The notes under the pieces were generated by a model. The model did no database searches and was not told the origin of the DNA. It saw nothing but the letters and a program-made list of their open reading frames with translations. 33,094 nucleotides of DNA from Sphaerochaetaceae bacterium. Its GTDB lineage: Bacteria > Spirochaetota > Spirochaetia > Sphaerochaetales > Sphaerochaetaceae. Shown here one piece after another: positions 25,316 through 30,589 of this stretch; the stretch's first letter is position 1, and every line of letters begins with the position of its first letter. The stretch covers positions 1-33,094 of the forward strand of contig JAFGUP010000004.1 of NCBI GenBank assembly GCA_016938475.1. Direction: 5' to 3'. The position numbers and the translations under genes were made by a program.

Positions 25316-25470
25316 GCAGGAGTACGACCTTCAGATGCTTTCGTGTATGCTATACACCTTAGCATAGTTACCGAAAAAGGGGACACTGTATGATGAAAAT
25401 CTTATTGACAACTCAATTCTATCATCATACTGTTTACCTAGGATTAGAGATTCAACGGGGAGGAAATTCT

Positions 25471-25728
25471 ATGACATACCGTGATGATGAAGATTATGAA
25501 GAGGAATTCTTTGAAGATAACGATTCAGATGGATCGGAACAGATAGAAGATTACTTCGACCCCGATGAGTACCGGGAAGACGATGATTACGACGGGTTCG
25601 ATGACGAGAACGAGGATGACGATATAGATGATTTCTTCCTTGATGAGAGTGATGAGACCGAAGTCATCGATGAAGATGAGGACTTCTTCTTTGATGATGA
25701 TGAGGAAGATGACGATTTCGACTTCTAG
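25471..25728 (+). CDS. Very acidic small protein (59% Asp+Glu)
   Basis: 85 residues, of which 50 are Asp or Glu and only two (both Arg) are basic; there is no Lys, Cys or Trp. Aromatic residues (mostly Phe and Tyr) are interspersed. It has no recognisable domain and is probably disordered. GGGGAGGA (25457-25464) lies 6 bases before ATG 25471. The frame also opens 27 codons earlier at 25390, but that extension has a different, hydrophobic composition and no ribosome site. A strong terminator follows, so it is a single-gene unit. Possible roles seen for such proteins include DNA mimicry, divalent-cation buffering or chaperoning of basic proteins; none can be chosen from the sequence. Confidence 0.75.
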   Translation: MTYRDDEDYEEEFFEDNDSDGSEQIEDYFDPDEYREDDDYDGFDDENEDDDIDDFFLDESDETEVIDEDEDFFFDDDEEDDDFDF

Positions 25729-26062: not shown

Positions 26063-26080
26063 ACCGCAATGCGATATAGT
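26052..26080 (+). promoter_or_regulatory. Promoter of the first binding-protein gene
   Basis: TTTACA (26052-26057), 17 bases and TATAGT (26075-26080). The predicted start at about 26087 leaves a leader of about 27 bases, too short for a T-box or riboswitch. Confidence 0.75.
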
Positions 26081-26113
26081 ACATCCATGACACGAAATCA
26101 GGGGAGAACACAC

Positions 26114-27103
26114 ATGAACAAGACAACAACACTACTTATTACAATTTTAATCACCCTCCTTGCCATGCCGCTGACGGCACAGGCCCACATGGAGACTCAG
26201 AATGAAGGCACTGTCAGGATCGGCATATCGAAGATAGTTGCCCACCCGGCACTTGATGCCATAGAACAAGGTATGAAGGACTATCTTGCAGAGCAGGGCT
26301 TCACGATCACCTACGACACCCAGAATGCCAATGGAGATATTTCCGCTGCTACCTCTATTGCTCAGAAATTCAAATCAGACAAAGTTGATCTCGCCGTCGG
26401 TATTGCAACTCCCACAGCACAGGCTCTTGCCAACGTCTTCGATGAGACTCCTGTTATCTTCGGCGGAGTGACCGATCCTCTCGAAGCAGGTCTCGTTCCC
26501 TCCTACGGACCGAATACGGGCAATGTCGGAGGCGCCAGTGACAAGAATCCCGTATATGAGCAGGTGAAGACCTTTGCTGAAATAACAGGAATCAGAAGTA
26601 TCGGCATCATCTATACCAGCGGTGAAGCAAACGGTGTTCAGCTCAAGGATATGGTACAGAATGCTGCTGAACAGCTCGGACTTTCCTTCCATGCCAGCGG
26701 CATCAGCAACTCGAGTGAAGTAAAATCAGCGGCCCTCGCGCTTGCACCTCGAGTGGATGGGTTCTATGTTGGAACTGACAATACGGTGGTTTCAGCAATC
26801 ACAGGCATCAGTGATGTAGCCTCACAGTACGGCATCCCGTTCTTTACCGCAGATCCCACCAGCGCAGAAGGACTTGATTACTTCATGGTGTGGGGTTTTG
26901 ATTATTACGTTCACGGGAGAAAGACCGGAGAGGCTGTTGCAGAGGTCCTCAGTGGTCGAAAGACAGCAGGAGAGGTCGGCACACTGTTCTCAACAGAACC
27001 CGACGAGTTTGAACTCTGGTTCAATCTGGATGTTGCAGAAAAACTCAACATAGACATTCCACAGGAATATCTGGACAGTGCGCTCGTACTCTACTCGGAA
27101 TAG
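26114..27103 (+). CDS. ABC transporter substrate-binding protein, TrpX-type (first copy)
   Basis: 329 residues of the PF04392/COG2984 family, whose characterised members include the tryptophan-binding TrpX of streptococci. The signal peptide ends LTAQA and has no lipobox, so the mature protein is periplasmic. VRIGISKIVAHPALDAIEQG opens the mature domain; GIATPTAQALANVF, TDNTVVSAI and WGFDYYVHGRKTGE follow. It is clearly paralogous to the next gene over its full length, but differs in the second-lobe loops that line the ligand cleft (GGASDKNPVYEQ, FTADPTSAEG), suggesting another ligand. GGGGAG precedes ATG 26114. The longer frame from 26069 runs through the promoter. Confidence 0.88.
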   Translation: MNKTTTLLITILITLLAMPLTAQAHMETQNEGTVRIGISKIVAHPALDAIEQGMKDYLAEQGFTITYDTQNANGDISAATSIAQKFKSDKVDLAVGIATPTAQALANVFDETPVIFGGVTDPLEAGLVPSYGPNTGNVGGASDKNPVYEQVKTFAEITGIRSIGIIYTSGEANGVQLKDMVQNAAEQLGLSFHASGISNSSEVKSAALALAPRVDGFYVGTDNTVVSAITGISDVASQYGIPFFTADPTSAEGLDYFMVWGFDYYVHGRKTGEAVAEVLSGRKTAGEVGTLFSTEPDEFELWFNLDVAEKLNIDIPQEYLDSALVLYSE

Positions 27104-27129
27104 AATCGAGAAAGTCGCGATATTGAATG

Positions 27130-27154
27130 AACGGTGCATGTTTATGCACCGTTT
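27130..27154 (+). terminator. Hairpin between the two binding-protein genes
   Basis: AACGGTGCAT (27130-27139) pairs with ATGCACCGTT (27144-27153) around a 4-base loop, 26 bases after the first gene's stop. Only T27152-T27154 follow directly. It probably attenuates transcription or protects the 3' end of the first message. Confidence 0.6.
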
Positions 27155-27166
27155 CGTATGTCCGTC

Positions 27167-27195
27167 TTTACAAGACAGCTCCTTCCCTCTATAGT
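27167..27195 (+). promoter_or_regulatory. Promoter of the second binding-protein gene
   Basis: TTTACA (27167-27172), 17 bases and TATAGT (27190-27195) use the same hexamers and spacing as the promoter of the first copy, but lack the GTTTCT/AGAAAC palindromes. The transporter genes can therefore be expressed independently of that operator. Confidence 0.7.
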
Positions 27196-27233
27196 TATTG
27201 AACGTAGACAACGCAATTTCACAGGAGTTCATC

Positions 27234-28235
27234 ATGAAAAAAACAATTCTCATCACCGTGCTTGCACTTTTCCTCATTACCACCACAGCTTTTGCTCAGG
27301 GGCAACAGGAATCATCATCGTCTGTGACAAAGATAGGTATCAGTAAGTTCCTTTCCCACCCTGCTCTCGATGCAACTGAACAGGGGATTCAGGATTATCT
27401 TTCCCAGAATGGATATGAGGTCACCTACGATTTTCAGAATGCGAACGCCGAAGTCTCCGCGGCAGCTCAGATAGCACAGAAGTTCAAGAGTGACAGGGTA
27501 GATATCGCCGTTGGTATCGCCACTCCGAATGCACAGGCACTGGCGAACGTTTTCAGCGATATTCCTGTCGTCTTCTCGGCGGTCACCGATCCTGTTGATG
27601 CGGGACTCGTTCCTACCTATGAACCAGGGTACTCGGTGAATGTTACCGGAGTTTCTGACATGAACCCCGTGGAAGCTCAGATTGCTCTCCTTGTCGACCT
27701 GACCGGTGCTGAGACTGTTGGGAATATCTATGCAAGCGGAGAAGCGAATGGGGTACTGCTCATGGAAAGTGCAAAGGCTGCATGTGAGAAACTCGGGGTA
27801 GATTTTATTCCTGCTGCAGTGAGCAACACCAGTGAAGTCATGCAGGCGGCTCAGTCCATAGCAGGACGGATTGATGCAATGTACATTGCTACCGATAACA
27901 CGGTCATCAGTGCACTGCCCTCTATTGATGATGTGTGTTCGAAGGCTGGTGTAGCTTTGATGGCCGCAGACCCTTCCGGGGTAGACGGGCTTAACTTCCT
28001 TGTGGCTATGGGGTTTGACTATTACAAGATCGGTATCGCGACCGGACGGGTGATAGCAGATGTCATCGACGGGAAGACTCCCGGAGAAATCGGCACGGTG
28101 TTCCTTGCTGAACCGAGTGACTTTGAACTCTGGCTGAACAAGGATGCTGCTGCTGACCTGGGTCTCACGATCCCTCAGTCGCTCATCGATGAAGCGGCCG
28201 TCTATTATGAAAACGGTCAGAAGATTGAAAACTAG
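27234..28235 (+). CDS. ABC transporter substrate-binding protein, TrpX-type (second copy)
   Basis: 333 residues, same family as the preceding gene. The signal peptide MKKTILITVLALFLI...AFA has no lipobox. VTKIGISKFLSHPALDATEQ, the QKFKSDRVDIAVGIATPNAQ stretch and MGFDYYKIGIATGRVIADVI align directly with the first copy. The cleft loops differ (GVSDMNPVEAQ, MAADPSGVDG). AGGAG (27223-27227) is 6 bases before ATG 27234. It is followed at 20 bases by the permease gene, so this copy is the resident partner of the importer and the first is a second specificity module or a duplicate. Confidence 0.9.
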   Translation: MKKTILITVLALFLITTTAFAQGQQESSSSVTKIGISKFLSHPALDATEQGIQDYLSQNGYEVTYDFQNANAEVSAAAQIAQKFKSDRVDIAVGIATPNAQALANVFSDIPVVFSAVTDPVDAGLVPTYEPGYSVNVTGVSDMNPVEAQIALLVDLTGAETVGNIYASGEANGVLLMESAKAACEKLGVDFIPAAVSNTSEVMQAAQSIAGRIDAMYIATDNTVISALPSIDDVCSKAGVALMAADPSGVDGLNFLVAMGFDYYKIGIATGRVIADVIDGKTPGEIGTVFLAEPSDFELWLNKDAAADLGLTIPQSLIDEAAVYYENGQKIEN

Positions 28236-28255: not shown

Positions 28256-29212
28256 ATGATTGAAGGTATTTTTGTTGATGGATTGATCTTTTCCATCATG
28301 GTACTGGGTGTACTCATCACCTACAGAATTCTTGACTTCCCTGATCTGACGACAGACGGCTCCTTTGCAACAGGAGCCGCTGTTGCGACTATTTCGATAG
28401 TGAACGGGTTAGGTCTGTTCCCGGCTATCCTGCTTGCCACCCTTGCGGGTGCGGCTGCGGGGATAGTGACAGCAACGATCCATAACCATCTCAAAGTCCC
28501 CGGTCTCCTTGCCGGTATTCTCACCATGACTATGCTGTACTCTGTCAACATCAGAATCCTTGGCGGAAGGGCGAATGTTCCTCTGCTCAGGATAGAAACA
28601 TTGTACTCCAGAATGCCTGAACAGTTTTCCTTCCTCTCTGAACCATGGGCCCTCCTGGTGGGAACGCTCATCATCGTCATCATCGTCAAGTTGATCCTTG
28701 ATCTGTTCTTCAGGACAGACCTTGGAATTTCTATCGGTGCTTTAGGAAGCAATGAACAGATGATCGTATCGATGGGAATCAATCCTCGAGTTCTCAAGGT
28801 GATAGGCATTGCAGTGTCAAATGGACTGATAGCACTTTCAGGTGGACTGCTGGCTCAATATCAAGGATTCGCAGATGCGAACCTCGGTGTGGGCATGGTC
28901 GTCCAGGGCCTTGCTGCCATCATGATCGGTGAGTTCCTCTTCAACACCAACAAGATCTTCCTGATTTCCCTGCGGGTGATATTCGGAGCGATCATCTATA
29001 AGGGACTGATGTTCTTCGGCCGATACTATGGATACTATATCAATCTCACTCCGAGTGATCTTAAACTCCTCACCGGCATCCTTGTTATCGTATCTCTGGT
29101 GATTGCCAAGACGCGCAATGCGGCAAGCAGCGCAGATGCCCGCAAGAAGGCGATAAAGAAGAATCTGGCTTTGAGGGAACATGAAGAGAAGAAGGAGATA
29201 GAACATGCTTAA
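28256..29212 (+). CDS. ABC transporter permease, TrpY-type
   Basis: 318 residues with about eight membrane helices and a charged cytosolic tail (REHEEKKEIEHA). It belongs to the branched-chain-amino-acid-type permease fold used by the uncharacterised COG4120 importers, of which TrpY is one. DFPDLTTDGSFATGAAV near the N-terminus and ALGSNEQMIVSMGINPRVLK (an ATPase-docking loop) are typical. A single permease gene implies a homodimeric channel. It overlaps the ATPase start by 8 bases. Confidence 0.9.
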   Translation: MIEGIFVDGLIFSIMVLGVLITYRILDFPDLTTDGSFATGAAVATISIVNGLGLFPAILLATLAGAAAGIVTATIHNHLKVPGLLAGILTMTMLYSVNIRILGGRANVPLLRIETLYSRMPEQFSFLSEPWALLVGTLIIVIIVKLILDLFFRTDLGISIGALGSNEQMIVSMGINPRVLKVIGIAVSNGLIALSGGLLAQYQGFADANLGVGMVVQGLAAIMIGEFLFNTNKIFLISLRVIFGAIIYKGLMFFGRYYGYYINLTPSDLKLLTGILVIVSLVIAKTRNAASSADARKKAIKKNLALREHEEKKEIEHA

Positions 29213-29996
29213 GATAGAACAGGTATCGAAAGTGTTCTACCCGGGAACGGTGAATGAGAAGAGAGCTCTTGACTATGTGAACCTTGAGGTGTCCGATGGA
29301 GACTTTGTAACCGTAGTTGGATCCAACGGTTCAGGCAAATCGACTCTCTTTAATCTGATAGGAGGAACATTCCCTGTCACAGGAGGCAAGATCCTCCTCA
29401 ACGGTACTGATGTTACCGGCAAGCCTGAGTACAAGCGGGCATTCACCATCGGACGGATCTTCCAGGATCCCACCGTGGGTACAGCGGCCGCGATGAGTAT
29501 CGAAGACAACATGATCACAGCGTATAAGAAAGGGATGAAAGGGCTGAAGATCAGTCTGAATCATGTGAAGCGCGAGATGTTCAAGAATGAGCTCAAGCAG
29601 CTGTCCATGGGCCTTGAAGAACGTCTGAAGGATAATGTCGGACTGCTCAGCGGAGGCCAGCGTCAGGCACTCACCCTGCTTATGACAGTATTGAGCAGAC
29701 CAAAACTCCTCCTTCTTGATGAACACACGGCTGCTCTCGACCCGAGAAATGCCCAGATCGTCATGGATCTGACGACTCAGTTTATTAAGAAGTACCAACT
29801 CAGTGCACTGATGGTTACCCATAACATGCAGCACGCCATACAGTACGGCAACCGGCTGATCATGATGGATGAGGGAAATATTATTCTCGATCTGAAAGAG
29901 GAAGAGAAAAAGAACCTGACAGTCCCGAAACTTGTAGAGATGTTCAAGTCGATCAAGAACAAGGAGTATTCTTCGGATGAGGATCTTCTTTCCTGA
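29205..29996 (+). CDS. ABC transporter ATP-binding protein, TrpZ-type
   Basis: 263 residues, complete nucleotide-binding domain of COG1101. Walker A GSNGSGKST (39-47), Q-loop RIFQDPTVG (84-92), signature LSGGQRQ (148-154), Walker B LLLLDE (168-173) and switch H206 in VTHN are all intact. It powers the permease encoded just upstream. The acidic tail (SSDEDLLS) is unremarkable. The transcript can run on into the structured region beyond and end at the terminator at 30197-30228. Confidence 0.93.
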   Translation: MLKIEQVSKVFYPGTVNEKRALDYVNLEVSDGDFVTVVGSNGSGKSTLFNLIGGTFPVTGGKILLNGTDVTGKPEYKRAFTIGRIFQDPTVGTAAAMSIEDNMITAYKKGMKGLKISLNHVKREMFKNELKQLSMGLEERLKDNVGLLSGGQRQALTLLMTVLSRPKLLLLDEHTAALDPRNAQIVMDLTTQFIKKYQLSALMVTHNMQHAIQYGNRLIMMDEGNIILDLKEEEKKNLTVPKLVEMFKSIKNKEYSSDEDLLS

Positions 29997-30006
29997 CATC
30001 ATCTGA

Positions 30007-30193
30007 TCACACGCATCTCAGAGGCTTTACTAACTTGCTGTGTGAGTCTATCCTGCACCCCTCAACGGATTGAGGGAGGATGAGCTGCTGATATGTTCAT
30101 TGAGGAGAGGCCGTTGATGATGGGTGCAGACAATGGTGAAACACTGATGGCCCCAAGACACAAAGGTTTCAGGTGCTACCCTAAACCTTTGTG
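30007..30193 (+). ncRNA. Candidate structured RNA: four stems between the ATPase gene and rsfS
   Basis: Four foldable elements lie in about 190 bases without a gene. TCACACGCA (30007-30015) pairs with TGC-T-GTGTGA (30036-30045). CTGCACCC (30053-30060) pairs with GGGTGCAG (30122-30129), and inside it TCAACGG (30062-30068) pairs with CCGTTGA (30111-30117). CACAAAGGTTT (30159-30169) pairs perfectly with AAACCTTTGTG (30183-30193), with an inner GGT/ACC step. A terminator follows at 30197. I do not recognise it as tmRNA, SRP RNA, RNase P RNA, 6S RNA or a known riboswitch. A possible internal promoter is TTTACT (30026-30031), 17 bases, TATCCT (30049-30054). Strand is not certain, because stems fold on both; the terminator's T run favours plus. 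Confidence 0.45.
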
Positions 30194-30196
30194 CAT

Positions 30197-30228
30197 CTGA
30201 CAGGCAGAAATCAGCTGTCAGGCTTTTT
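30197..30228 (+). terminator. Rho-independent terminator overlapping the rsfS stop codon
   Basis: CTGACAG (30197-30203) pairs with CTGTCAG (30215-30221) around an 11-base loop; GC and five T (30224-30228) follow on the plus strand. It would end the transporter transcript or the candidate RNA. The convergent rsfS stop codon (30218-30220) lies inside the stem. Confidence 0.65.
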
Positions 30229-30589
30229 CAAGCTTATCGAGGAATTCAACCTTTTCCGCTGTCGACCACAGTTTCTCAAGATTATAGAACTCTCTCAGAT
30301 CACGTCCCATCAAATGGATGACGATGTCTCCGCAGTCAATCAGTTCCCAGCCATCATCACCAACCTGTTTATGACGATTGATGACGTGAACACCTTTCTC
30401 ATTCAGTACATCCCACAGCTCACGAGCAAGACCTCTGAGGTGTCCAAGTGAGTTCACTGTCGAGATGATGAAGGCATCAGCCCATCCACTTACTTCACTC
30501 ACATCCAGGACGACGGTATCTTCTCCCTTATGGTCTGTAATAAACCGTGCAATCTCCTGTATGATCTCTTGCCGTTCTTTCTCTATCAT
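30218..30589 (-). CDS. rsfS: Ribosomal silencing factor RsfS
   Basis: 123 residues of the Iojap/DUF143 family. RsfS binds protein L14 on the large ribosomal subunit and blocks subunit joining when nutrients are short. VVLDVSEVSGWADAFIISTV (26-45), the GDDGWELIDCGDIVIHLM stretch and REFYNLEKLW match the family from end to end. The start overlaps the preceding lipoprotein stop by ATGA. It sits at the end of the obg-nadD-yqeK group, as in many bacteria. Confidence 0.95.
   Translation of the reverse strand: MIEKERQEIIQEIARFITDHKGEDTVVLDVSEVSGWADAFIISTVNSLGHLRGLARELWDVLNEKGVHVINRHKQVGDDGWELIDCGDIVIHLMGRDLREFYNLEKLWSTAEKVEFLDKLEKA

Follow-up and report, generated by a model that had tools for sequence, protein, structure and literature searches.

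The gap between an amino-acid-type ABC importer operon and the convergent rsfS gene of this Sphaerochaetaceae genome is best read, with a probability that we put at roughly three in four, as a lineage-specific structured 3' untranslated region (3' UTR) that terminates and shields the importer mRNA and separates it from the rsfS operon on the opposite strand. The importer operon carries a T-tailed terminator on its own strand, directly at the end of rsfS, and the intervening sequence contains two strong hairpins, with no sequence homologue detected in the family genomes searched.

The convergent locus and its predicted terminator

The window (the whole stretch of 33,094 nt that was analysed) represents contig C11 of a draft genome of 3.07 Mb in 395 contigs. 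The ABC importer ATP-binding protein gene (29205-29996; Pfam ABC_tran and open reading frame list) is the final gene of a plus-strand operon, in which it is preceded, in 5' to 3' order, by genes for two ABC_sub_bind proteins and a BPD_transp_2 permease (all Pfam assignments). The substrate-binding protein genes form a tandem (26069-28232, plus strand) ahead of the single permease and single ATPase genes, and an open reading frame of 112 aa at 25390-25728 on the same strand is extremely Asp/Glu-rich from about residue 30 to its end. On the minus strand lies rsfS (30218-30589; Pfam RsfS, 8.3e-26), and upstream of it on that strand are genes for a protein that matched no Pfam family, an HD-domain protein at the yqeK position and a nadD-like cytidylyltransferase, such that the importer and rsfS gene groups are convergent. 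The putative 3' UTR runs from the ATPase stop codon to the terminator (29997-30195, plus strand).

The initial annotation had claimed a plus-strand intrinsic terminator in the gap, and we confirmed a stable, G-C-paired hairpin with a U-tract directly behind it at 30196-30228. Its arms (TCTGACAG/CTGTCAGG) form a stem of 7-8 pairs, one of them G-U, with an 11-nt loop and a stem energy of -10.1 kcal/mol, followed by the tail CTTTTTC. The hairpin extends into the 3' end of rsfS, and its T-run falls within the last rsfS codons on the opposite strand. The 14-mer CTGTCAGGCTTTTT, which makes up the 3' half of the terminator, has exactly one further copy in the genome, and since that copy likewise forms the 3' half of a hairpin with a T-tail, the recurrence supports the terminator reading. 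Judged from these features, a plus-strand intrinsic terminator at this position is plausible. It does not look bidirectional, because no T-run was found behind any hairpin on the minus strand of the gap.

Under the 3' UTR reading, RNA polymerase leaving the ATPase gene would transcribe about 200 nt of the gap and stop at 30196-30228, and the terminator would restrict read-through into the opposing genes from rsfS to nadD. Intrinsic terminators are enriched between convergent gene pairs (PMC7566282), and the gap resembles them in its G-C hairpin and T-run at an operon 3' end that faces a gene, while it differs in its two strong upstream hairpins and its tail length of about 200 nt. Such a tail with its additional hairpins exceeds what termination needs and speaks against the reading; on the other hand, many bacterial 3' UTRs exceed the 40-50 nt that a terminator requires (PMC7821165).

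Stems and competing folds in the gap

Of the stems described in the initial annotation, the two longest were recovered where it had placed them. Inverted-repeat and fold analysis located the perfect 11-bp stem at 30159-30193 (plus-strand coordinates), with arms CACAAAGGTTT (30159-30169) and AAACCTTTGTG (30183-30193) that are extended by three further pairs (AGG/CCT); this hairpin is strong on both strands. The two-part stem (30053-30129, plus strand) consists of an 8-bp part (CTGCACCC/GGGTGCAG; 30053-30060/30122-30129) and a 7-bp part (TCAACGG/CCGTTGA; 30062-30068/30111-30117). By contrast, a bulged 9-bp stem that had been proposed near 30009-30060 was not stable, the segment folding worse than the mean of its shuffles (z +0.6).

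Perfect inverted repeats with seven-nucleotide arms and loops of up to 20 nt were found six times in the gap against 0.41 expected, a number reached in none of 1000 shuffles. On the plus strand, the sub-regions 30053-30129 (z -3.5) and 30150-30230 (z -3.6) folded better than all of 400 shuffled sequences each, although both were picked for their stems, so that these shuffle counts somewhat overstate the significance. Taken whole, the gap gave a z of -2.0 for the plus strand and -2.7 for the minus strand. Among 127 plus-strand segments of 234 nt from the window, nine lay below the plus-strand value of the gap (minimum -3.4), and the gap as a whole is therefore no sharp outlier and seems only mildly structured by this model. 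The 11-bp hairpin and the two-part stem are most readily accounted for as 3' end structure that would slow exonucleases, shielding the mRNA from attack at its 3' end, in keeping with the inhibition of PNPase by terminator hairpins (PMC7821165).

The TCAACGG segment had also been proposed to pair either over a distance or within a local hairpin (CCTCAA-CGGA-TTGAGG; 30060-30075). Both folds exist in the sequence and compete with one another, but not on equal terms: when 30053-30129 was folded alone, the long-range form (-30.3 kcal/mol) was favoured by about 4 kcal/mol over the local form (-26.2 kcal/mol), whereas the fold of the full-length plus-strand gap preferred the local hairpin, set within another long-range pairing. 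The model thus leaves the prevailing fold unfixed and a switch unproven, and a fold switch of TCAACGG is possible on paper. A species-specific regulatory RNA derived from the importer mRNA, in which this segment switches between the two folds, appears distinctly improbable to us. A riboswitch or attenuator is likewise unlikely, because the plus strand has no gene immediately beyond the gap to control, the next genes (rsfS and its neighbours) lying on the minus strand.

The gap could instead hold a small protein gene, either a 35-aa frame at 30093-30200 (plus strand; MFIEERPLMMGADNGETLMAPRHKGFRCYPKPLCI) preceded by GGGAGGA or a shorter product from an inner ATG (GAGGAGAGG). The frame is open and has Shine-Dalgarno-like stretches upstream; however, it passes through the 11-bp hairpin, and the best match in the 138 other family genomes covered 14 residues with an E-value of 0.028. 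We consider a coding function the least probable of the readings weighed.

Conservation and homologue searches

RsfS was present in 58 of 61 genomes, and the order of ATPase gene and convergent rsfS was kept in eight relatives (G001, G002, G003, G005, G007, G017, G019 and G032) among the loci read, two of the eight belonging to the same genus. The shortest syntenic gap, in G005, has about 20 nt and the longest, in G001, about 300 nt; most are near or under 100 nt. The initial annotation had looked to homologous gaps beside rsfS for support, and the eight collected here proved unrelated in sequence to the gap of the window. Six of them (G001, G002, G003, G007, G017 and G019) nevertheless contain a hairpin with a T-rich tail behind it, as read by eye and from folds, and share no common sequence; in G005 hardly any gap is left, and the strong hairpin of G032 lacks a T-run. 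The automatic terminator scan, run on the G001 locus only, did not list the G001 hairpin, the loop of which exceeds the limit set in the scan. With gene order kept in eight relatives and a hairpin and T-tail of its own in six, what is conserved appears to be termination between the convergent genes and not an RNA sequence.

A likeness between a G007 hairpin (GGTTTTGG...CCTAAACC) and the hairpin of the window was seen by eye and found no support from either the covariance model R2 (see below) or alignment A4. In the same-genus relative G001, the gap of about 300 nt holds a second long hairpin (AAAGATCAGGTT/AACCTGATCTTT; locus positions ~1400-1450) past the terminator-like one, and its sequence is unrelated to that of the window.

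A blastn search with the gap returned no homologue in the 138 other family genomes, including those of the genus and the relatives above, nor among plasmids and phages, and found the gap as a single copy in its own genome. The best matches were short; four that were inspected share about 28-46 nt, and by eye one of them (contig C70 of the same genome) is a terminator, while the other three (contig C334 of the same genome, G151 and G018) resemble coding sequence. Viral contigs scanned for shared 16-mers yielded four matches, a count attainable by chance alone. Single-sequence covariance models of 30040-30196 (R1) and 30156-30230 (R2), scanned with stricter filters against the whole family and 41 genomes, respectively, recovered only themselves, and neither matched the syntenic loci of the relatives. 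As far as the genomes searched show, the additional 130-200 nt of the gap thus appear lineage-specific. Published 3' UTRs behave similarly: across species, those of orthologous genes mostly differ in sequence and length, and conservation breaks off around the stop codon (PMC7821165). Fitting both this pattern and that of convergent terminators, the gap would be a new example of an ordinary type.

The gap might also be what is left of an insertion, either MITE-like or a transposase fragment, with CCTGACA at 29992 and TGTCAGG at 30216 as worn terminal repeats. These inverted 7-mers do flank the gap, the gap is longer than most of those in relatives, and a 29-nt stretch matches another family member at 90% identity in a region that we judged, by inspection and not by search, to resemble transposase-coding sequence. 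However, the gap is a single copy, the first repeat sits in the stop region of the ATPase gene, and the CCTGACA motif and its complement are present at 29915 and within the terminator as well. The 29-nt match has an E-value of 2.9e-4 per genome, to be read across 139 genomes, and translated frames of the gap had no significant match in the loci compared. Such a remnant is very improbable, and family and locus comparisons supported neither it nor the small open reading frame.

Transcription of the gap and its biological meaning

A scan of the gap with Rfam covariance models, which the initial annotation had called for, produced no family match at gathering or permissive thresholds. The best weak matches (V_AS7, DicF, sR3 and sR41), which scored 10-15 bits where the gathering scores are 41-90 and had E-values of 1.2-8.4, resemble one hairpin or stretch of the gap at chance level only. 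The gap was also considered as a 6S RNA and rejected, as it did not match RF00013; the only candidate in this genome, a probable 6S RNA, lies on another contig (C44, 9211-9399, minus strand) and scores 44.8 bits, slightly below the family cut-off of 46.4, so that searches run at the standard cut-off would not report this candidate.

A small RNA transcribed independently from a promoter at 30026-30054 had been suggested, and there is indeed a hexamer pair spaced 17 nt apart (TTTACT-17-TATCCT) with a terminator downstream. The pair matches only 4+4 of 12 consensus bases, a figure that pertains to sigma-70 and not to other sigma factors, and was not called as a promoter; two further plus-strand placements in the gap score equally, and no site in the gap exceeds 8/12. 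We regard this origin as highly doubtful. The claim of a structured RNA thus stood with respect to most of its stems and its terminator and found no support with respect to independence, given the lack of a convincing promoter, an Rfam match or a homologue, the unrelated gaps of the same genus and the missing same-strand gene to switch. The same-genus sample comprises three genomes including this one, which is too few to exclude a species-specific functional RNA.

The main rival to the 3' UTR reading is a 3'-UTR-derived small RNA, in which cleavage of the importer mRNA within the gap would release a terminator-bearing fragment (e.g., 30040-30230) that acts on other mRNAs. Small RNAs of this origin are known, and lack of conservation across species is frequent among functional 3' UTRs (PMC7821165). 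The gap is similar to them, and to long structured bacterial 3' UTRs, in its position behind an operon, its strong individual stems, its long tail with a 3' terminator and its lack of interspecies conservation. Counting against this alternative, neither blastn nor the single-sequence model R1 detected a homologue in the 139 family genomes, and Rfam yielded no match; we rate it as unlikely. A literature search on small RNAs of Sphaerochaeta found no paper.

The importance of the structured 3' UTR would lie mostly in annotation, as it locates the end of the importer operon opposite rsfS and illustrates that strong stems alone are not enough to turn a short stretch between genes into an RNA gene. 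Should a discrete RNA come to light here, it would be an unstudied small RNA of a spirochaete family.
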